The notes below the pieces were generated by a model. That model did not search any database and was not told the origin of the DNA. It saw only the letters and a program-made list of their open reading frames with translations. From the NCBI GenBank assembly GCA_029552245.1, contig JAKPDW010000025.1, positions 1 to 64,000 of the forward strand: a stretch of DNA of 64,000 nucleotides, written 5' to 3'. This DNA is from Deltaproteobacteria bacterium. Lineage in GTDB: Bacteria; Desulfobacterota; Desulfomonilia; UBA1062. Below are positions 28,995 to 38,342 of the stretch, piece by piece. The stretch's first letter is position 1; each line of letters starts with the position of its first letter. A program made the position numbers and the translations under genes.

Positions 28995-30251
28995 TCACTC
29001 CCAGGTGCGTTCGTCCAGAAGCGGCTTCGCGTCGGCCGCCAGGGTCCCCGGCTCGACGAGTTCCAGCCTGTCGAGCCGCACCGTGCAGACCTCCTGGAAG
29101 GCCTTTTCGAAGCGCTCGGCCAGCCCGGTTGATGCCGGGCCCGCTCCCGACGCGTCGATCCTCGCCGTGAGGACGTCCCTCGTGCCCGACCTGCTCACGA
29201 CGAGTTGGACCACGATCCCGGGAAACATGTCCGTAAGGCGCTTGACCTGGCTCGGCGCCACGAACATGCCCCTGACCTTGACGGCCTCTCCGACCCGCCC
29301 GGCGATACCTTCGAGCCTCAAGGACGTCCTGCCGCACGGGCACGGCGCATCCGTCAGCCTCGAGAGGTCTCCGGTGCCGAAGCGGAACAGGAAGAAGATG
29401 GGGTTGAGCCTGGTGACCACGACCTCGCCGAGCTCGCCCGGGCCCAGGGGCTTGCCGGTCTCGGGGTCCACGATCTCCACGATGACCTCCTCGCAGAGGT
29501 GCCAGCCGTTCTTCTCCCGGCACTCGTACGCCACGTCGCCCACCTCCGTGGCGCCGTACATCTGGTAGGTGTCTATGCCGAAGTCGCGCTCGAATCTCCC
29601 GCGGAGCGAGGGCTGCAGGGGCTCGGCCGCAAAGGCCGCCCTCCTCAGGGAGAAGTCGCGGGCGAAGTCGTACCCCATCTCGTTCGCCTTGTCGATGATG
29701 GCCATGAGGAAGCTCGGGGTGCCCGTGTAACCCGTCACCTTGAGGTCCTTGATGAGCTGGACCTGCTGGTGGGCGGGCGAAGTGCCGGACGGCACCACGG
29801 TTGCGCCCACGCGGACCAGGCCGCCGTGGAACGTGAGGCCGGCGGCCACCATGTGGTACGAGAAGGCGTTCAGCACGATGTCTCCGGGCCCGAACCCCGC
29901 CGCCTTGTACGCACGAGCCCACAGGGGGTCGTCGGAGTTCAGGTGGGGCTCGTAGACCGGTCCCGGCGAGGTGAAGATGCGCTCGATGCGCGCCGATACG
30001 TCCGCGAGCCCGCCGTACGGGGGTTCTTCCTCCTCCATCCGGACGATCCGTTCGCGGTTGATCACGGGGAGCCTTTCCAGGTCGGAGACGGAACGAATAT
30101 CGGCAGGCGAAAGACCCGACTCGTCGAAGATCGCCCTCACCCTGTGTGACCGCTCGTAGCCGCGACGGACCATGTCGGCCAAGAGGCGTGACTGCCTCTC
30201 CGCCCGCATCTGCATCGACTGCGTTTCGAGATCGTCGAGATACCTTCCCAT
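28995..30251 (-). CDS. PaaK-like phenylacetate-CoA ligase family protein
   Basis: Adenylate-forming enzyme of 418 residues that joins an aryl or other carboxylic acid to CoA. Marks include the acceptor loop region DDPLWARAYKAAG, the adenylation motif YQMYGATEVGDVAYEC, and RFGTGDLSRL followed by CPCGRTSLRLEGIAGRVGE, as in PaaK. The canonical P-loop SSGTTG is replaced by TSPGPVYEP, so phosphate handling may differ from true PaaK or the protein may act on an acyl-adenylate from elsewhere. ATG 30251 has AAAGGAG 7 bases before it. It is the last gene of the Liv-type transporter operon, which suggests that it acts on the imported substrate. Confidence 0.82.
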   Translation of the reverse strand: MGRYLDDLETQSMQMRAERQSRLLADMVRRGYERSHRVRAIFDESGLSPADIRSVSDLERLPVINRERIVRMEEEEPPYGGLADVSARIERIFTSPGPVYEPHLNSDDPLWARAYKAAGFGPGDIVLNAFSYHMVAAGLTFHGGLVRVGATVVPSGTSPAHQQVQLIKDLKVTGYTGTPSFLMAIIDKANEMGYDFARDFSLRRAAFAAEPLQPSLRGRFERDFGIDTYQMYGATEVGDVAYECREKNGWHLCEEVIVEIVDPETGKPLGPGELGEVVVTRLNPIFFLFRFGTGDLSRLTDAPCPCGRTSLRLEGIAGRVGEAVKVRGMFVAPSQVKRLTDMFPGIVVQLVVSRSGTRDVLTARIDASGAGPASTGLAERFEKAFQEVCTVRLDRLELVEPGTLAADAKPLLDERTWE

Positions 30252-30318: not shown

Positions 30319-31128
30319 TTACAACCAGCGCTTTCTCCTCTTGTACGACTTCACCTCGCGATACGAGCGGGAGGCGCCCCCTGCGCTCACGCCCAGGTAG
30401 AACTCCTTCACGTCGGGATTCCCCCTCAGGTAGCCGGAATCCCCCTCCATGACCACCCGGCCGTTTTCCATGACGTACCCGTAGTGGGCTATCCTCAGGG
30501 CCATGTTCGCGTTCTGTTCGACGAGCACGATGGTCGTCTTCTGTTCCTCGTTGATTCGCTTGATGATCCGGAATATCTCCCGCACCACCAGGGGGGCGAG
30601 CCCCAGGGAGGGCTCGTCCAGGAGGAGGAGCCTCGGGTGGGCCATGAGCGCGCGGCCCATGACCAGCATCTGGGTCTCCCCGCCGCTCAGGTACCCGGCG
30701 AGCGTCTTTCTCCTCTGAACGAGGGAGGGGAAGTAGTGGTAGACGAGATCGAGGTCTTGCCGGTAGGGCTTCATCCACCTGGTTGCGGTCCCGACCCTCA
30801 GGTTCTCTTCCACGGTCAGGTACTTGAAGGGCTGCCTGCCTTCCAGGACCTGGATGATGCCGAGACGGGTGATCTCCTCTGGCGAGAGGTTGTGGATCTT
30901 CTCGCCGTCGAAGACGATCTCCCCGTCGGTGACCCGGCCGTTTTCCGGCTTCAGCAGCCCGGAGACGGCCTTCAGCGTGGTAGTCTTTCCCGCGCCGTTG
31001 CTCCCCAGCAGGGACACGATCCTGCCCCGTGGCACCTTCAGGGACACCCCCTTGATCACCTGGATCACGTCCGAGTACACGACCGATATGTTGTTGATCA
31101 CGAGGAGGCTCTCGTTGCTCGCACCCAT
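30319..31128 (-). CDS. livF: ABC transporter ATP-binding protein LivF
   Basis: Cytoplasmic ATPase of 269 residues for a branched-chain-amino-acid-type importer. Walker A GSNGAGKT (42-49), signature YLSGGETQM, Walker B LLLLDEPSLGL, and the LivF tail (VLVEQNANMALRIAHYGYVMENG) are present. It starts 9 bases after livM with GAGGTG as ribosome site. Confidence 0.93.
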   Translation of the reverse strand: MGASNESLLVINNISVVYSDVIQVIKGVSLKVPRGRIVSLLGSNGAGKTTTLKAVSGLLKPENGRVTDGEIVFDGEKIHNLSPEEITRLGIIQVLEGRQPFKYLTVEENLRVGTATRWMKPYRQDLDLVYHYFPSLVQRRKTLAGYLSGGETQMLVMGRALMAHPRLLLLDEPSLGLAPLVVREIFRIIKRINEEQKTTIVLVEQNANMALRIAHYGYVMENGRVVMEGDSGYLRGNPDVKEFYLGVSAGGASRSYREVKSYKRRKRWL

Positions 31129-31137
31129 GGTCGCACC

Positions 31138-32208
31138 TCAATAGGAAAAAGGCCACAGCCTGAAGGACGAGCGGACGATCCTCCAGATCTCGGCGAGCCC
31201 CTTGGGCTCGAACAGGATGAAGACGACGATGGCCAGGCCGAACGCGAACTCCCGGAGGCTGGCGAGGTTGAGCCCGAATCCGCTCGATATCCCCATGTTC
31301 ATCATGGCGTCGGTCAGGTACCTGAGGATCTCGTTGAGACCAGTTATGAACACGGCGCCGAACAGGGAACCGGGTATGCTGCCGAGCCCGCCTATGATCA
31401 CCATGGCGAGGTATTCGACGGAGAGGCCCAGCGTGAAGGGCTCAGTGGAGATGCTCCTCATGTAGTACGCCCAGAGGCCGCCTGCCACCCCCGCGTAGAA
31501 CGAGCTCATGGCGAACGACAACAGCTTGTAGCCGAAGACGGGGATGCCCATGCCCTCGGCTGCCCGGTCGTTGTCCCTGATGGCCACGAAGGCCCTTCCG
31601 TAGCTCGTGCGCATGACGTTCGACGCCATGAGCGTCATGGCCACGAGGACCCCGAAGATCAGGAGGAAGAAGGCCCTGTCCGAGGAGACCGGGAGGCCGA
31701 AGAGATGCGCCTGCGGGAGCACGATGCCCATGCTCCCCTGGGTCAGGGATTCCCAGTGCACCAGCACGTACTCGATGATGAACTGGCCTGCGAGGGTGGC
31801 GATCGTCAGGTAGAGCCCCTTGAGCCTGCCCGAGGGGATGCCGAACACCAAGCCCACGAGCGCCGTGACGATACCCGCTGCGGGTACACAAACCCAGAAG
31901 GGCATCTGCAAACGGGTGGCGAGGACGGCGGCCGAGTACGCGCCCACGCCGAAGAAAGCGCCGTGGCCGAGGGATATCTGCCCGGTGAACCCGACGAGGA
32001 TGTTCAGTCCCAGCGCTGCTATGGCCGCTATGCCGGTGATGTTGAGCACGTAGATGAGGTATGGCGGGCTTGCGAGGGGCAGGACGACGAAGAGCAGGAA
32101 GAGGCCCGCGAGGGTGCAGGCCCTCCCGAAGTCCGTCTCGAACAGAAAGAGCTGTTCCAGCCGGTCTTCCTTGTAATTTCCGCACGGGTGAAAGCGCAGC
32201 CTTCGCAT
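31138..32208 (-). CDS. livM: ABC transporter permease LivM
   Basis: Inner-membrane permease of 356 residues with about ten hydrophobic helices. The family block GLNILVGFTGQISLGHGAFFG is clear, followed by LKGLYLTIATLAGQF and IIGGLGSIPGSLFGA. ATG 32208 follows AGGAGAC and begins eight bases after the livH stop. The N-terminal 30 residues (RRLRFHPCGNYKED) are a soluble extension before the first helix. Confidence 0.93.
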   Translation of the reverse strand: MRRLRFHPCGNYKEDRLEQLFLFETDFGRACTLAGLFLLFVVLPLASPPYLIYVLNITGIAAIAALGLNILVGFTGQISLGHGAFFGVGAYSAAVLATRLQMPFWVCVPAAGIVTALVGLVFGIPSGRLKGLYLTIATLAGQFIIEYVLVHWESLTQGSMGIVLPQAHLFGLPVSSDRAFFLLIFGVLVAMTLMASNVMRTSYGRAFVAIRDNDRAAEGMGIPVFGYKLLSFAMSSFYAGVAGGLWAYYMRSISTEPFTLGLSVEYLAMVIIGGLGSIPGSLFGAVFITGLNEILRYLTDAMMNMGISSGFGLNLASLREFAFGLAIVVFILFEPKGLAEIWRIVRSSFRLWPFSY

Positions 32209-32216
32209 CTTGTCTC

Positions 32217-33095
32217 CTAGACCCGTTCTATCTCCACCAGGCCGAAGAGGCCGTAGGGTTTGACGAGGAGGATCGCGACCAGCACGATGTACGGGATCAC
32301 GTCCCTCAGGGATGGGGAGATGTAGCCGCTCGTGAAGGTTTCCAAGAGCCCGATGATCATGCCGCCGATGATGGCGCCCCCGATGCTGTCGAGGCCGCCC
32401 AGGATCACGACGGGGAAGACCTTGAGCCCGATGGAGGATATCTCGTGCACGTTGATGCCGTTGATGATGCCGAGCATGACCCCGCTCATGGAAGCGACCA
32501 TCGCTGCGATCGCCCACGAGAGGGCGAACACCTTCTTCACGTGGACACCGAGGGACAGGGCCGCCGTCTGGTTGTCGGCGACCGACCTCATGAAGATGCC
32601 CTGGGGCGAGTACTTGAAAAAGAGCCCGAAGAGCACGAGGAACACGATCCCCAGCAGGGAGGACGCCACGTACACGGGGGGGATGTACACGCTGCCCGCC
32701 TGCACGGCGAGCCACCCGGGCAGGAAGTCCGGGTAGGTCTGGAGGTTGCCCCCGAAGAAGAGGAGCAGGATCCCCTTGAGCATGGAGGCGAGACCCACGG
32801 TCAGCATGATGACGAAGATGAGGGACTCGCCTATGAGCGGCCTCAAGAAGACGCGCTCCACGGCGAAGCCGAGGGCGAAACTCCCGCACAGCGTGACGAG
32901 GAAGGCGAGGGCCACGGGGAGCTTCAACCACGACACGAGGACGAGGAAGGCGAAGGCGCCGATCGCGAGCAGCTGCCCGTGGGCGAAGTTGAGCACCGAG
33001 GATGACTTGAAGATCATGACGAACCCGAGGGCCGAGACCCCGTAGAGCAATCCCACGCTGAGACCGTTGATGAACAGATGAATGAAGAAGTCCAT
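32217..33095 (-). CDS. livH: ABC transporter permease LivH
   Basis: Inner-membrane permease of 292 residues with about eight helices. Family marks are NGLSVGLLYGVSALGFVMIF, SVLNFAHGQLLAIGAF and VILGGLDSIGGAIIGG. It partners LivM to form the channel. AAGGAAC lies before ATG 33095, 25 bases after the acyl-CoA synthetase gene stop. Confidence 0.93.
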   Translation of the reverse strand: MDFFIHLFINGLSVGLLYGVSALGFVMIFKSSSVLNFAHGQLLAIGAFAFLVLVSWLKLPVALAFLVTLCGSFALGFAVERVFLRPLIGESLIFVIMLTVGLASMLKGILLLFFGGNLQTYPDFLPGWLAVQAGSVYIPPVYVASSLLGIVFLVLFGLFFKYSPQGIFMRSVADNQTAALSLGVHVKKVFALSWAIAAMVASMSGVMLGIINGINVHEISSIGLKVFPVVILGGLDSIGGAIIGGMIIGLLETFTSGYISPSLRDVIPYIVLVAILLVKPYGLFGLVEIERV

Positions 33096-33120: not shown

Positions 33121-35073
33121 TCAGAAGACCGTAATGACCCGGGAAGTCGTCTCGATCATGCCCACGGTGCCGTCCCGGTAGCGGATCTTCCCCTTCACCG
33201 CCACCTCCGCGAGCCCCTGGTACATGGCCTCTATGAGGTTCAGGTACAAACCGTAGACGAATCTCCTCCTCACCTTCCCCGTCCTGGTAAGCTCCTCGTC
33301 GTCGGCGTCGAGCAGCTTGTACAGCAGGATGAACCGCTTCACCTGCATGGGCGGCGGCAACTGGGCGTTCACCTTCCTCACCTCGTCGAGGATGAGGTGC
33401 TCCACCTCCGGGCGCTGCGAAAGGTCCGTGTAGGTGGTGTAGGGGATCATCCGCTCCTCGGCCCAGTTGCCCGTGTTTCCCTGGTCGACGTTGATGAGGG
33501 CGGTGATGAAAGGCCTGCCCTCCCCGAAGACCACCGCCTCCTTGATGTAGAGCGAGAACTTGAGGCGGGTCTCGATGAAGTCCGGGGAAAAGGCGTTCCC
33601 GTGCTTGTCCCTGATGATATCCTGCTTGCGGCCGATGATCACGAGGTGACCGTCGTCGTCGAGGTACCCCGCGTCCCCGGTCTTGAACCAGCCGTTCTCG
33701 AAGGCCTCGTCGGTCGCCTCGAAGTCGTTGTAGTAACCGGTGAAGACAGATTCCCCGAGGACCATGACCTCCTGGTCCGGGGAGATCTTCACGGAGGTCT
33801 TCGGCAGGGTCTTTCCCACGGTCTCGGGCTTCACCTCGTCGTCCGGCTGCACCTGGAAGATGCCGCAGGTCTCGGTCATGCCGTAGCACTGCTTGAGGTT
33901 GAGCCCGCAGGCCCTGAAGAAGCGTATCACGTCGGGGCTTATGGGGTGGCCTCCGGTGTAGGCGGCAAGGAGCCTCGAGCACCCCACCCTGTCGAGCAGG
34001 GGGTTGAAGACGAGCGTCCTCGCGATGCGGTGGAGAACCCTGAGGCCGGCCGGGGGCCCGCCCTGACGGGAGTCCCGCTCGACGCACGCCCTTCCTATGC
34101 GTTCGGCGACCGTGAACGCCGCCTTGTTGATGGCGGACGAGTCGTCTATCTTCACCCGGATCCTGCTGGCGAGGTCCTCCCAGAACCTCGACGAGGTGAT
34201 GAGGAGCTCCGGGCCGATCTCCCGGAAGTCCTCGGTCACGGTCTCGGGGGTCTCCGGGAAGTTCATGGTCATGCCGCCCATGAGCGCCACGCCGAAGGCC
34301 CACATCTGGTCGACGATCCAGGCGGGCGGGGTCATGGAGAGCCAGTTGCCGCCCCTGGTTACAGGCGCGGTCTCGATCCATTGCCTGGCCATGGCGGTGT
34401 AGTTGCGGTGCGACAACATGGCGAGCTTCGAGACCCCGGTGGTGCCCGAGGTGAGGATCATGTGCGCCGTCTCGCTCGGCTTTCCCTTGGAGACCTCCTC
34501 GACGAAGAGCCCGGGATGCCTGAGTTCGTGTTTCTTCCCGAGCTCGAGGAGGTCTTTGTAGCTGACGAGGAGCCTGTTTCCCGCGTACCCGCGCATACCC
34601 GTGGGGTCCACGTAGACGAGCGCCTCGAGGTGAGGCAGGTTCGACGACTGTTCGAGGATCTTGTCGGTCTGCTCCTGGTCTTGCACGATCACTATCCTGG
34701 CGTTGACCCGCTTCAGCGTGGAGGCGATCTCGCTCGCCACGGCCGACGTGAAGAGGTTGAGCGTGACGGCGCCCATGGCCTGGGACCCGAGCTGGCAGAA
34801 CAGCCACTCGGGGTGGTTGTTCACGACCATGGCCACATTGTCGTGACGCTTGAGGCCCAACGCCTTGAGGCCGTACGCGGTGAGCCTCACGTAGTCGAGG
34901 TAGTCCTGCCAGGTGTATGTCTGCCAGATCCCGTAGGCCTTTTCCCTGATCGCCGGCGGATCGCTCCCGAAGGCCTGCGCCTGGTGGATGAGCACCTGCG
35001 GCAGGGTCATGGTCTCGAGCCTGTCGAGAACATCCGCGTGCATCTTGATGCCGCTCGCTTTCACCCGGGACAT
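33121..35073 (-). CDS. long-chain acyl-CoA synthetase-type AMP-dependent ligase
   Basis: Membrane-associated or cytoplasmic ligase of 650 residues (COG1022-like) that activates a carboxylic acid to its CoA thioester with ATP. It has the P-loop LTSGTTGVSKLAM, the GYxxTE-like motif CYGMTETCG, and GWFKTGDAGYLDDDGHL with IIGRKQDIIRDKHG near the C-terminus. It lies inside the transporter operon between livG and livH, so it may activate the substrate on entry (vectorial acylation) and trap it in the cell. A GGGAGG site precedes ATG 35073. Chain length or aromatic preference cannot be told. Confidence 0.92.
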   Translation of the reverse strand: MSRVKASGIKMHADVLDRLETMTLPQVLIHQAQAFGSDPPAIREKAYGIWQTYTWQDYLDYVRLTAYGLKALGLKRHDNVAMVVNNHPEWLFCQLGSQAMGAVTLNLFTSAVASEIASTLKRVNARIVIVQDQEQTDKILEQSSNLPHLEALVYVDPTGMRGYAGNRLLVSYKDLLELGKKHELRHPGLFVEEVSKGKPSETAHMILTSGTTGVSKLAMLSHRNYTAMARQWIETAPVTRGGNWLSMTPPAWIVDQMWAFGVALMGGMTMNFPETPETVTEDFREIGPELLITSSRFWEDLASRIRVKIDDSSAINKAAFTVAERIGRACVERDSRQGGPPAGLRVLHRIARTLVFNPLLDRVGCSRLLAAYTGGHPISPDVIRFFRACGLNLKQCYGMTETCGIFQVQPDDEVKPETVGKTLPKTSVKISPDQEVMVLGESVFTGYYNDFEATDEAFENGWFKTGDAGYLDDDGHLVIIGRKQDIIRDKHGNAFSPDFIETRLKFSLYIKEAVVFGEGRPFITALINVDQGNTGNWAEERMIPYTTYTDLSQRPEVEHLILDEVRKVNAQLPPPMQVKRFILLYKLLDADDEELTRTGKVRRRFVYGLYLNLIEAMYQGLAEVAVKGKIRYRDGTVGMIETTSRVITVF

Positions 35074-35083
35074 CGCCTCCCCC

Positions 35084-35935
35084 CTACTCCCCCGAGGGGA
35101 GATCGTGTTCCAGGTCAGAGGTCTCCCCGAGGTATGCTCGGATGACGTCCGGGTGGTCCTGGATCTCGTCCGGTCGACCCTCGGCGAGCTTCTCGCCGAA
35201 GTTGAGCACGAAGACGCGCTCGGAAATGCTCATGACGATGGACATGTCGTGTTCCACGAGGATCATGGTCTGGCCCCAGCCGTCGTGAAGCTCCAGGAGG
35301 AAGCGGACCATGTCTTCCTTTTCCTCGAGGGTCATCCCCGCGAAGGGTTCGTCGAGGACGAGCAGGCTGGGTTCCAGGGCGAGGGCCCTGCCGAGCTCCA
35401 CGCGCTTTCGGAGGCCGTAGGGAAGCGAGCCCACGAGCTCCTTCCTGATCGACTGGATCTCGAGGAAGTCGATGATCTCTTCCAGGATTTCCCGGTGCAT
35501 GACTTCCTCCCTCTTGACCGAGCGGAGGAACAGGCATGCGGAGGCGAAGGAGTACGTCGCCTTGGTGTGGCGGGCGAGGAGCAGGTTGTCGAGCACGGTC
35601 ATGCCGGGGAAGAGCTCGATGTTCTGGAACGTCCTGCCGATGCCGAGCGAGGTGAGCCTGTGCGACGGCAGGGACGTTATGACCCTGCCGTTGAACAGGA
35701 TGCTGCCTGATGAGGGTTTGTAGAAGCCGGTGATGCAGTTCATGAGGCTCGTCTTCCCGGCGCCGTTCGGGCCTATCACGGCCACGAGTTCCCCGGTGCG
35801 CACGGAGAGGGATACCTCCCTGAGGGCCTGGATGCCGCCGAATGACAGCGAGAGGTCTCGTATGTCGAGATCCGCCCTCTTGGCGGACATCTTCTCGTGG
35901 GTGAAGATTCGTGGTTGCCCTCGGTATGCCCTCAC
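35084..35935 (-). CDS. livG: ABC transporter ATP-binding protein LivG
   Basis: ATPase of 283 residues, partner of LivF. Walker A GPNGAGKT (55-62), a modified signature LPYGLRKRVE typical of LivG, Walker B LLVLDEPFAGM, and the TMILVEHDMSIVM switch His are all there. The GTG at 35935 is used because GGGAG lies 6 bases upstream; the ATG at 35890 is the alternative and would drop 15 residues. It is 24 bases after livK. Confidence 0.92.
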   Translation of the reverse strand: MRAYRGQPRIFTHEKMSAKRADLDIRDLSLSFGGIQALREVSLSVRTGELVAVIGPNGAGKTSLMNCITGFYKPSSGSILFNGRVITSLPSHRLTSLGIGRTFQNIELFPGMTVLDNLLLARHTKATYSFASACLFLRSVKREEVMHREILEEIIDFLEIQSIRKELVGSLPYGLRKRVELGRALALEPSLLVLDEPFAGMTLEEKEDMVRFLLELHDGWGQTMILVEHDMSIVMSISERVFVLNFGEKLAEGRPDEIQDHPDVIRAYLGETSDLEHDLPSGE

Positions 35936-35959: not shown

Positions 35960-37177
35960 CTATTTCGTCTTGGTGCCTACGAGCTTGATCTTTCCCTTGC
36001 CCGGGGTGAAGAACTCCGTGAGCGGGGTGAACGTGCCGTTCTCGTGGATCTGGACGATCCTCCCGGTGAACGACGCCTCGTGGTCGGTGCCGGAATAGGT
36101 GACGGCGGGCACGAGGCCGCCGAAATCCTCGTTCTTGAACGATTCGAGGGCCTTGTTCACGTTTATGGGGTTGACCTCGCCGAACTTCTCCTTCGCCCAA
36201 AGGAAGGCGCGTTCCATGATCATGCCGACCACGATCCCCTCCCAGTATGCGGTGTCAAAGGAGTCGACGGTCTTGTACCGCTTCCAGATGGTTTCCATGA
36301 GCTTCACGCCGGGCGTCCTGTCCGAGGGAAGCCCGCCGCAGAAGTGCATTTTCACCCGGTTTCTGATGAGGCCCTGGCCGTTCTTGAAGAAATCGGGATC
36401 GGTGGACGTCCAGGTCCCGATGAACACGGGGTTGTAGCCGATCCGGTCTGCGGCCTTGAGCGTGCTGATGATGGCCGCCGGCAACATCTGCATGAAGACG
36501 TACTCCGCGCCGCTCTGCTTGAGGCGGAGAAGCTCGGTGGTGAGATCGACGGTCTGCGGGGGGAACTCCTCGATGGAGACGATCTCGATGTTTTTCCCCT
36601 TTGCGAACTCCTTGCTCGGCTCGTGGATGGACCTGCCGTAGGCATTGTTGTAGGTGAGGAGCCCCACCTTGGCCGGGGACTTGCCCTTGTGCACGGCGGA
36701 GATGTACTCCATGACCGCGGCGCAGTCGAGCCTGTAGCTGCCGAACGGCAGGTACATGAAGTCAACGGGCGGCTGGAGGATCTCCCACGCCGTCGAATAG
36801 TTGATCGCAGGGATCTTGTATTCCTGGAGGAGCGGCTTTGCCTGCAGCCCCTCGCCTGCGCTCCAGGTGGCGATCATGTCGACCTTCTCCTGCATGGCGA
36901 ACTTCCTCACCGCGGCGACCGCCTCTGCGGGTTTGTATGCCGTGTCGACGGTGATCAGGGAGATCTTGTCCCCCTTCACGCCGCCCTTGACCTCGTTCAC
37001 GTAGCGGAAGTAGTCCTGGGTGCCCTTGGCATGGTACTGTCCCCAGGTGGAAGCGGGACCCGTGAGGTTGATCGCCGCCCCGACCTTGATGTCCTTGGCA
37101 TGAAGCGCCGAGGAGATCGTCAAGCAGACGAACAGGGCGATACCTCCCACCATCAAAGCACGTCTCACGTTCACCAT
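35960..37177 (-). CDS. livK: periplasmic substrate-binding protein LivK type
   Basis: Exported type I periplasmic binding protein of 405 residues that delivers ligand to the Liv permease. A signal peptide (RRALMVGGIALFVCLTISS) ends at LHA before KDIKVGAAINLTGPAS, the usual first strand. GLLTYNNAYGRSIHE and FIGTWTSTDPDFF are typical of the second lobe. AAGGAGG lies 7 bases before ATG 37177. It is the first structural gene after the phenylalanine-type attenuator. Members of this family bind branched-chain or aromatic amino acids, amides, or aryl acids; the CoA ligases in the operon favour a carboxylic acid. Confidence 0.92.
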   Translation of the reverse strand: MVNVRRALMVGGIALFVCLTISSALHAKDIKVGAAINLTGPASTWGQYHAKGTQDYFRYVNEVKGGVKGDKISLITVDTAYKPAEAVAAVRKFAMQEKVDMIATWSAGEGLQAKPLLQEYKIPAINYSTAWEILQPPVDFMYLPFGSYRLDCAAVMEYISAVHKGKSPAKVGLLTYNNAYGRSIHEPSKEFAKGKNIEIVSIEEFPPQTVDLTTELLRLKQSGAEYVFMQMLPAAIISTLKAADRIGYNPVFIGTWTSTDPDFFKNGQGLIRNRVKMHFCGGLPSDRTPGVKLMETIWKRYKTVDSFDTAYWEGIVVGMIMERAFLWAKEKFGEVNPINVNKALESFKNEDFGGLVPAVTYSGTDHEASFTGRIVQIHENGTFTPLTEFFTPGKGKIKLVGTKTK

Positions 37178-37258: not shown

Positions 37259-37304
37259 AAAAAAGCCGCAGGTCGACGTACAAGGTCCACCTGCGGCTTT
37301 TTTT
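37259..37304 (-). terminator. intrinsic terminator of the attenuator
   Basis: On the minus strand the RNA reads GCCGCAGGU, a 15-base loop, ACCUGCGGC and then UUUUUU; the A run before the stem extends the pairing. It lies about 80 bases before the livK start and after a Phe-rich leader peptide, so it is placed to stop transcription of the operon unless an alternative fold wins. Because it is symmetrical it would also work on the plus strand. Confidence 0.85.
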
Positions 37305-37349
37305 GACTAGGTCTCGGAGCTACAAGCGCAGGCAGACCTAATCAAAAAA
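37283..37349 (-). promoter_or_regulatory. alternative helices of the attenuator
   Basis: Two folds compete with the terminator logic. Helix 1:2 pairs 37349-37334 with 37314-37299 (about 16 pairs, one G-U), including the last Phe codons and the stop. The antiterminator pairs 37339-37327 (AGGUCUGCCUGCG) with 37295-37283 (CGCAGGUGGACCU), 13 pairs with two G-U and no gap, and uses the 5' arm of the terminator. A ribosome finishing the peptide would cover 37339-37327 and let the terminator fold; one stalled at an early Phe codon would leave it free. Confidence 0.7.
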
Positions 37350-37364
37350 GAAGAACCCGAACAT
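37338..37364 (-). CDS. Phe-rich leader peptide, 8 residues
   Basis: ATG 37364 opens the frame MFGFFFFD, then TAG. Five of eight codons are Phe (UUC, UUC, UUC, UUU, UUU). This is the design of leader peptides in pheA, pheST and similar attenuators, where translation speed reports charged tRNA-Phe. The ribosome site is weak (CCAGG 5 bases upstream). It overlaps helix 1 of the attenuator and sits about 185 bases before livK. Confidence 0.75.
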   Translation of the reverse strand: MFGFFFFD

Positions 37365-37397
37365 GGTGCCTGGTCTCGCAATTGCCATAGGATAGAG

Positions 37398-37426
37398 GCA
37401 TTAAGGAAATATCGGGGAGAAGTCAA
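37398..37426 (-). promoter_or_regulatory. candidate promoter of the Liv operon
   Basis: TTGACT (37426-37421) is followed after 17 bases by TAATGC (37403-37398) on the minus strand, a good -35 and a poor -10. It lies between the upstream radical SAM stop (37440) and the leader peptide ATG (37364), which is where a promoter for an attenuated transcript must be. Confidence 0.4.
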
Positions 37427-37439
37427 GGAAAAAGTCGCC

Positions 37440-38342
37440 TCAGATGACCGAGGGGACCGAACGGTAGTGCCTGATCCTCTGTTCTTCGGGAAGGGAGAGG
37501 AACGAATCGATGACCTCGAGCATCCCGTCCTTGTGGAGGTCGATGCGCCCTTCCACCTGGATATAGTTGTTCGCGTGGTCGCAGGTGAGCACCATGGGCG
37601 AGGGCTCGAGCTCCGCGAGGATGCTCCTGAGCTCGAGCACCGTTCCCTCGGGGGTCTGTTCGGTGAATCGCCCCGACCGGATCTCTTCCCCGAGCCTTGA
37701 CATGGGGTGGATCCAGAGCCTCCTGATGCGGGCGAAGTGGGGCTTGACTTCGTTGAGCACGCGGGCCGACTCCTTGGCGTGCTCCTCCCAGAGCTCGACG
37801 CCCCCGAGCCCGAGGAGGACGTAGTAGCTCAATTCCATCCCCGAGGACATGGCCTTGTGCCCGGCGTCGATGAGTTGTGCCTGCGTCGTCCCCTTCATGT
37901 GGAACCTCAAGACCTTGTCGGAGCCGCTCTCCATCCCCACGTGGACCCTGTCGAGCCCCGCCTTGCGTATCGAGACGAGTTCCTCCCGGGTCTTCTTCGC
38001 CAGAGATGACGCCCGGGCGTACGAGGTGACCCGTTCGAGCCGTGGGAAGGTCTTGCGCAGGTGCTCGAGCACCTGAACGAGGAAGTCCGTCTTGAGGTGC
38101 AGGGGGTTTGCGTCGCCCAAGAACGCGGTCTTGAAGATGTCGCCGTAGATGGCGCGCAGGGCGTCGATGTCCTCGATGACCTCCTCCAGGGAGCGCTCGG
38201 AAAAGGGCGTGTCGAAGAAGTCGTAGATCCCGCAGAAGGCGCACCTGTTCCAGTTGCACCCTCTCACGAGGCGGACGAGCAGGCTTCTGGCCTCGCTCGG
38301 TGGTCTGATCACCAGATGTTCCGGGGGTCTCATGATCTCCAT
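37440..38342 (-). CDS. radical SAM protein, RPPSEA family (first paralogue)
   Basis: Iron-sulfur enzyme of 300 residues, function unknown. After VIRPPSEARSLLVRL comes GCNWNRCAFCGIY with Cys at 29, 34 and 37, a CX4CX2C spacing rather than the common CX3CX2C. The barrel continues with FLGDANPLHL, HVGMESGSDKVL and LLGLGGVELW. A second copy lies at 46159 with the same layout. Start at ATG 38342 or 38333; GGAG lies just before the second and AGGAG farther before the first. It reads away from the glycosyltransferase cluster and is separated from livK by the attenuator. Confidence 0.85.
   Translation of the reverse strand: MEIMRPPEHLVIRPPSEARSLLVRLVRGCNWNRCAFCGIYDFFDTPFSERSLEEVIEDIDALRAIYGDIFKTAFLGDANPLHLKTDFLVQVLEHLRKTFPRLERVTSYARASSLAKKTREELVSIRKAGLDRVHVGMESGSDKVLRFHMKGTTQAQLIDAGHKAMSSGMELSYYVLLGLGGVELWEEHAKESARVLNEVKPHFARIRRLWIHPMSRLGEEIRSGRFTEQTPEGTVLELRSILAELEPSPMVLTCDHANNYIQVEGRIDLHKDGMLEVIDSFLSLPEEQRIRHYRSVPSVI

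Follow-up and report, generated by a model that had tools for sequence, protein, structure and literature searches.

A complete phenylalanine (Phe) attenuator is found on the minus strand, at 37388-37259, of the window, by which we mean the whole stretch of 64,000 nucleotides of a Deltaproteobacteria bacterium that was analysed. It lies between a radical-SAM gene ending at 37440 and a livK gene starting at 37177, and it is followed by an operon for a Liv-type importer with CoA ligases. As an RNA element it is close to certain on comparative grounds, and comparison likewise supports its conservation and the aromatic leaders on ior and DAHP synthase operons described below. As a full explanation we lean slightly towards a Phe attenuator coupled to the salvage of aryl acids to Phe, in which we infer the starvation response, the direction of the indolepyruvate oxidoreductase (IOR) and the substrate.

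The leader, its promoter and the hairpins of the switch

Along the transcript the elements follow each other in the order TTGACT, CTTAAT, leader ORF, protector hairpin, antiterminator, terminator and U6 (Table 1). The true leader probably has 16 codons and begins at ATG 37388, because this is the only start candidate retained across the 15 aligned relatives, and TTGAC lies 37-39 nt upstream of it in 16 of 16 sequences (the window and these relatives). The earlier note had read the peptide as MFGFFFFD from ATG 37364, but that codon is an internal Met absent from the relatives, and the start at 37388 is preferred. The mRNA is probably nearly leaderless, since a start site at normal distance after TTGAC leaves few bases before the ATG. 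The automatic sigma-70 scan returned no promoter at the leader. A short leader ORF with a run of Phe codons, as expected of an amino acid attenuator, is present in the window as MAIARPGTMFGFFFFD, with its stop codon at 37340-37338. Leaders in the relatives include MASRLLTTTSFGFFFFD, MAIEYININSINFFFFD and MAHYVSLTTSSSFFFFFG, and their Phe runs differ by third-position C/T changes (TTC/TTT) that are all synonymous.

Three helices compete for the RNA behind this peptide. The protector, or 1:2 helix, has 16 pairs (37349-37334 with 37314-37299) and spans the last two Phe codons, the Asp codon and the stop. The antiterminator has 12 pairs, between GGTCTGCCTGCG (37338-37327) and CGCAGGTGGACC (37295-37284). 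The terminator pairs 37301-37285 with 37277-37261 and contains nine unbroken pairs (GCCGCAGGT/ACCTGCGGC), three further pairs past one mismatch, outer A-U pairs and U6; a simple terminator scan of the window does not have the hairpin at 37301-37261 among its entries. The first GGTCT serves both protector hairpin and antiterminator, and the terminator 5' arm likewise takes part in two helices, those of antiterminator and terminator. These overlaps are what a three-state switch requires. The architecture described in the earlier note is thereby largely borne out on the minus strand: the helix over the last leader codons and the 9-bp terminator stem with U6 are present, the latter with three more pairs than claimed, and all elements are ordered and overlap as needed. 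The antiterminator that it placed on the terminator 5' arm holds as a helix and in its overlap, with 12 pairs in place of the 13 given there.

We propose that the element is a classical ribosome-mediated transcription attenuator which would read charged tRNA-Phe. When Phe is plentiful, the ribosome would reach the leader stop and cover the antiterminator 5' strand, and the terminator would form. When Phe is short, it would stall on the Phe run and mask the protector 5' arm, which would free GGTCTGCCTGCG to pair with the terminator 5' arm and let transcription proceed into livK-livG-acs-livH-livM-livF-PaaK-like. Folding under alternative constraints, a check that the earlier note had proposed, gave different outcomes depending on the ribosome edge. 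The edges are standard footprints and were assumed as such, with 37341, 37338 and 37335 standing for stalls with Phe12, Phe13 and Phe14 in the A site, and 37326 for the stop codon. With no ribosome the protector hairpin belongs to the optimum. In RNA freed from 37341, 37338 or 37335 the antiterminator is the optimum (-24.4, -23.5 and -15.5 kcal/mol, respectively), and in RNA freed only from 37326 the antiterminator is lost and the terminator is unopposed.

The genes behind the terminator have the content given in the earlier note, as Pfam and NCBIfam matches confirm. The order livK-livG-acyl-CoA synthetase-livH-livM-livF is constant in every sufficiently long locus, and in the window the intergenic gaps are 9-67 bases. 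The last gene reaches 194.8 bits against PaaK (TIGR02155), where the cut-off is 646.3, and is PaaK-like rather than canonical PaaK; a PaaK-like gene is the last one in most loci, and in some attenuated operons no PaaK was detected downstream.

Table 1. Positions of the attenuator elements and operon genes in the window, and of two related leaders on other contigs of the same genome (G000)
Feature	Position	Strand	Evidence
-35-like box TTGACT of leader promoter	37421..37426	-	sequence and alignment with 15 relatives
-10-like box CTTAAT (TTTAAA/TATAAA in relatives)	37400..37405	-	sequence and alignment
Leader peptide ORF MAIARPGTMFGFFFFD, with stop	37338..37388	-	alignment; relatives share the start codon and the Phe run
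Protector hairpin 5' arm TTTTTTGATTAGGTCT (last Phe codons to past stop)	37334..37349	-	96% of cells paired in 16 sequences; no more than 64% in slid controls
Protector hairpin 3' arm AGACCTAGTCAAAAAA	37299..37314	-	folding and alignment
Antiterminator 5' strand GGTCTGCCTGCG	37327..37338	-	folding and alignment
Antiterminator 3' strand CGCAGGTGGACC, within terminator 5' arm	37284..37295	-	96.8% of cells paired; no more than 43% in slid controls
Intrinsic terminator 5' arm	37285..37301	-	three compensatory pairs; 0/500 shuffles reach covariation score
Intrinsic terminator 3' arm and U6 (37264-37259)	37259..37277	-	sequence and covariation
livK-like periplasmic binding protein	35960..37177	-	Pfam Peripla_BP_6 2.5e-48; AlphaFold pLDDT 89.7; nearest PDB chain 3lkb, Z 45.8
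livG-like ABC ATPase	35084..35935	-	ABC_tran and BCA_ABC_TP_C
AMP-dependent acyl-CoA synthetase	33121..35073	-	AMP-binding 1.2e-57
livH-like permease	32217..33095	-	BPD_transp_2
livM-like permease	31138..32187	-	BPD_transp_2
livF-like ABC ATPase	30319..31128	-	ABC_tran; best NCBIfam match LivF, below cut-off
PaaK-like CoA ligase, divergent	28995..30251	-	195 bits against 646-bit PaaK cut-off
Tyr-rich leader attenuator GYGYYYSRLY 5' of iorA-iorB-PaaK-ACT	L154:8150-8330 (G000:C95)	+	
Mixed Tyr/Phe/Trp leader attenuator MFYGYYFWFTGVWPPVG before DAHP synthase	L278, G000:C53:137670-137805	-	weak model match

Conservation and covariation at livK

A strict caller, which requires a short ORF with 4 or more Phe among 9 residues and, behind it, a terminator and an antiterminator, picks out 58 of the 75 upstream regions of related livK genes. 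Controls gave 2 positives in 1875 dinucleotide shuffles of the livK upstreams and none at 759 other gene starts from the same loci, and with Phe swapped for 13 other residues the caller returned at most 6. Some uncalled regions still carry parts of the element: weaker leaders are visible by eye in L040, L049 and L098, the regions L051 and L054 are truncated by contig ends and retain the terminator, and in L053 the terminator is displaced. Thirteen livK upstreams are without an attenuator, namely L078, L103 and a further 11 whose livK is about 55-65% identical. The loci L078 and L103, titled Syntrophus aciditrophicus and with about 67% livK identity, retain the operon and have no recognisable Phe attenuator. 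By a covariance model of the livK leader, 18 family genomes have the element upstream of livK. The earlier note had pointed to relatives that keep the terminator and lose the Phe codons or the antiterminator pairing as the pattern that would speak against an attenuator; in the alignment of livK upstreams this pattern is not seen, and the three are retained jointly across many genera.

The leaders come in two architectures, in which the terminator core and the antiterminator are recognisably alike. In type A, found in the window's own family, the Phe run closes the peptide, and GGTCTRCCTGC directly adjoins the stop codon. In type B, the form of Syntrophaceae and their relatives, Smithella among them, the Phe codons are set apart from each other (FFGFFSFFGEVCLLSS, FFYFFSFINLKVCLIKS) and the frame continues through GGTCTGCC; here segment 1 (GGCAG and similar) lies 5' of the Phe codons and pairs with segment 2 in 41 of 48 leaders. 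The type A terminator has 96.7% of cells paired and three pairs with two-sided changes (15 cells), a score reached by none of 500 shuffles, and the type A antiterminator contains one two-sided pair. Columns 66, 128 and 155 show a three-way covariation, changing from G-C-G to A-U-A in four sequences: column 128 goes from C to U together with G to A at 66 and 155, and therefore both the antiterminator and the terminator keep standard pairs. Three further sequences carry U at column 128 and form G-U pairs with one partner or with both. In the window the base shared by the two folds is 37293, which pairs with 37329 in the antiterminator and with 37269 in the terminator. The type B terminator has four two-sided pairs (30 cells; 0/500 shuffles). 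For the type A protector helix, 96% kept in 16 sequences, there are one-sided changes only and no compensatory pair, and the type B antiterminator, 94% kept, likewise shows one-sided changes only.

A same-strand gene ends upstream of the hairpin, at 37440, and the hairpin could for that reason be taken as the terminator of the radical-SAM gene next to a T-rich ORF that arose by chance. This reading is largely refuted and we hold it to be highly improbable. It is opposed by the shuffle and gene-start controls, by the synonymous codon changes in the Phe run, by the alternative pairing that is retained with three-way covariation, by the conserved promoter between the radical-SAM gene and the leader, and by the occurrence of the same element where the radical-SAM gene does not adjoin.

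Many type B attenuators have a further T-run hairpin (GGCCGTGG...CCACGGCC) directly 3' of them, forming a tandem terminator. Such loci upstream of livK include L034, L039-L048, L050, L052, L055, L058 and others.

Aromatic leaders on ior and DAHP synthase operons

Related leaders occur elsewhere in the window's genome and family. Contig C95 of this genome carries the leader MERETPRTCGYGYYYSRLYRCACP and the terminator GGGGCCATGGGCAGAAACCCATGGCCCTTTTT, followed by iorA-iorB-PaaK and a small ACT-like gene. The iorA product matches IOR_alpha at 743 bits (over the cut-off), IOR beta is matched as well, and PaaK scores 643 against 646.3 bits and is near-canonical; the IorAB and phenylacetate-CoA ligase that aryl-acid salvage calls for are present in the genome on this contig. 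In the family, Tyr/Phe leaders were called at 15 of 18 first iorA copies (0/720 shuffles). Second iorA copies have Trp leaders, ranging from WWWW to WW, in 9 of 10 cases when at least 2 Trp are asked for (1/400 shuffles). The Trp-rich leaders 5' of a second iorA lie in other genera of the family (L124, L129, L133, L126, L130-L132, L134, L123). On L124 there is a sub-threshold match to the Rfam family Phe_leader on the strand opposite its ior gene, which we take as chance. The second iorA of the window's own genome, on contig C49, has no aromatic leader upstream, and its IorAB is possibly a catabolic copy. This IorAB (G000:C49:91631-93514, L155) lies downstream of a same-strand ORF that looks TetR-like, as an impression from the sequence. 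As a general feature of the phylum, aromatic ior leaders are rejected: among 88 ior upstream regions in its other families there was one doubtful call.

In most family genomes the livK-leader covariance model has a second, weak match, which corresponds to mixed Tyr/Phe/Trp leaders before DAHP synthase. All 16 such loci tested were called (0/320 shuffles). They had been chosen by model match and inspection, and the count therefore speaks for the reality of the leaders and not for their frequency.

Genes attenuated through a particular tRNA are marked as ones that relieve the corresponding shortage. In this Desulfobacterota-related family the leaders may belong to one regulon sensing tRNA charge, with a Phe leader on an aryl-acid importer and CoA ligases, Tyr/Phe and Trp leaders on two IORs and a mixed leader on DAHP synthase. 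Aromatic amino acids would be made both de novo and from salvaged aryl acids, and IOR would act anabolically, a picture that we judge to be evenly balanced between right and wrong. The suggestion in the earlier note that the importer responds to Phe shortage gains weight from the presence, within one family, of aromatic leaders on ior operons and on that of DAHP synthase.

What the operon may supply

Because Phe shortage would switch it on, the operon would serve Phe supply. On the reading that we prefer, an aryl acid, with phenylacetate as first choice, would be taken up and activated to its CoA thioester by the operon ligases; such uptake and activation are suggested because the Phe-only leader on the importer and ligases joins the Tyr/Phe and Trp leaders on IorAB. 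The aryl-CoA would then be converted to phenylpyruvate through reductive carboxylation by IorAB, and to Phe by transamination.

The simplest logic is that Phe itself is imported when Phe is short. The same attenuator would then control a direct importer of Phe (or a broad one for hydrophobic and aromatic amino acids), with the CoA ligases serving another purpose. In E. coli, LivK carries the annotation of a leucine/phenylalanine binding protein and LivJ that of a branched-chain/phenylalanine one, and a Phe importer would be regulated identically; among solved structures the closest to LivK is 3lkb, a complex with valine. We nevertheless consider direct import rather unlikely. The acyl-CoA synthetase lies inside the operon in all sufficiently long relatives and the PaaK-like gene is there in most, with the short gaps noted above in the window, and the aromatic leaders on iorAB point to the synthesis of arylpyruvates. 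The residues that hold the amino group seem to be replaced too. In E. coli LivJ these are Tyr202 and Glu226, which we take to be the amino-group-binding residues, and they stand opposite the invariant Leu232 and, by extension, Trp256 of LivK in a part of the alignment that is weak. As evidence on the ligand, this pocket comparison counts as weak only, since the hhalign alignment stops short of Trp256 by one residue, and 3lkb, which binds valine, carries His at that position.

It is also conceivable that another carboxylate is imported, either a branched-chain or fatty acid or an aromatic one for catabolism, with an indirect link to Phe. The second structural neighbour of LivK, 4n03, is titled fatty acid binding protein, the PaaK-like enzyme is divergent, and those Liv transporters that have a CoA ligase embedded among their genes form a varied group. 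This we find distinctly unlikely, as a Phe-specific leader across many genera implies a product that relieves Phe shortage. The structure of LivK did not tell these ligands apart: binders of valine, fatty acids and aromatic acids all share the modelled fold. Among them are binding proteins of the Liv-type importers for aromatic acids in Rhodopseudomonas palustris (for example 4dqd with phenylpyruvate and 4f8j with p-coumarate; Z 36-38), which were solved with aromatic acids and are about 15% identical to LivK. We know of no Phe attenuator on these importers.

The leader peptide can be read directly for the purpose of an operon, a Phe attenuator marking one that relieves Phe shortage. In syntrophic bacteria this would give a function to a common Liv-type importer with CoA ligases whose annotation is poor. 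The direction of IOR in these organisms, breakdown of aromatic amino acids or their synthesis from salvaged aryl acids, becomes testable, and amino acids, besides energy, may be among the things that anaerobic communities gain from cross-feeding on aromatic acids. A comparable route is known from Methanococcus maripaludis, where IorAB makes aromatic amino acids from aryl acids (PMC4162585, PMC3462420); the present case would differ in concerning Desulfobacterota-related bacteria, in having a dedicated importer operon and in being deduced from aromatic leaders.

The RNA mechanism itself is classical, and the target and the regulon appear to be undescribed in the literature searched. That search, in which subscription journals are thinly covered, found no attenuators on ior, PaaK or Liv/CoA-ligase operons. 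The element resembles the enterobacterial Phe attenuators of pheL/pheM type (pheA, pheST; RF01859) in its Phe-rich leader, in its mutually exclusive antiterminator and terminator and, as would be expected here, in being on when tRNA-Phe is uncharged. Unlike these it controls a Liv-type importer with CoA ligases, and its leader mRNA seems nearly leaderless. The Rfam model RF01859 (Phe_leader) does not match the window element at the gathering score or at E up to 1, and no other Rfam family matches it. The livK RNA motif (RF01744), named after livK and listed only for Pseudomonadales (PMC2864571), has no match to the window sequence.

Another difference from the pheL/pheM systems is that pheA of the window's family is without such a leader, none being found in 17 loci. 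The window's genome also encodes a full pheA, and salvage would therefore not be essential. Loss of prephenate dehydratase was rejected as a sign of salvage: it is missing from 7 of 24 family genomes, and four of the seven are also without the adjoining aroA, so that assembly gaps account for at least those. In two genomes of the same class (G036, G024) an element similar to the mixed Tyr/Phe/Trp leader of DAHP synthase stands before an operon with a pheA-like gene, which in G024 comes after a DAHP synthase-like gene.
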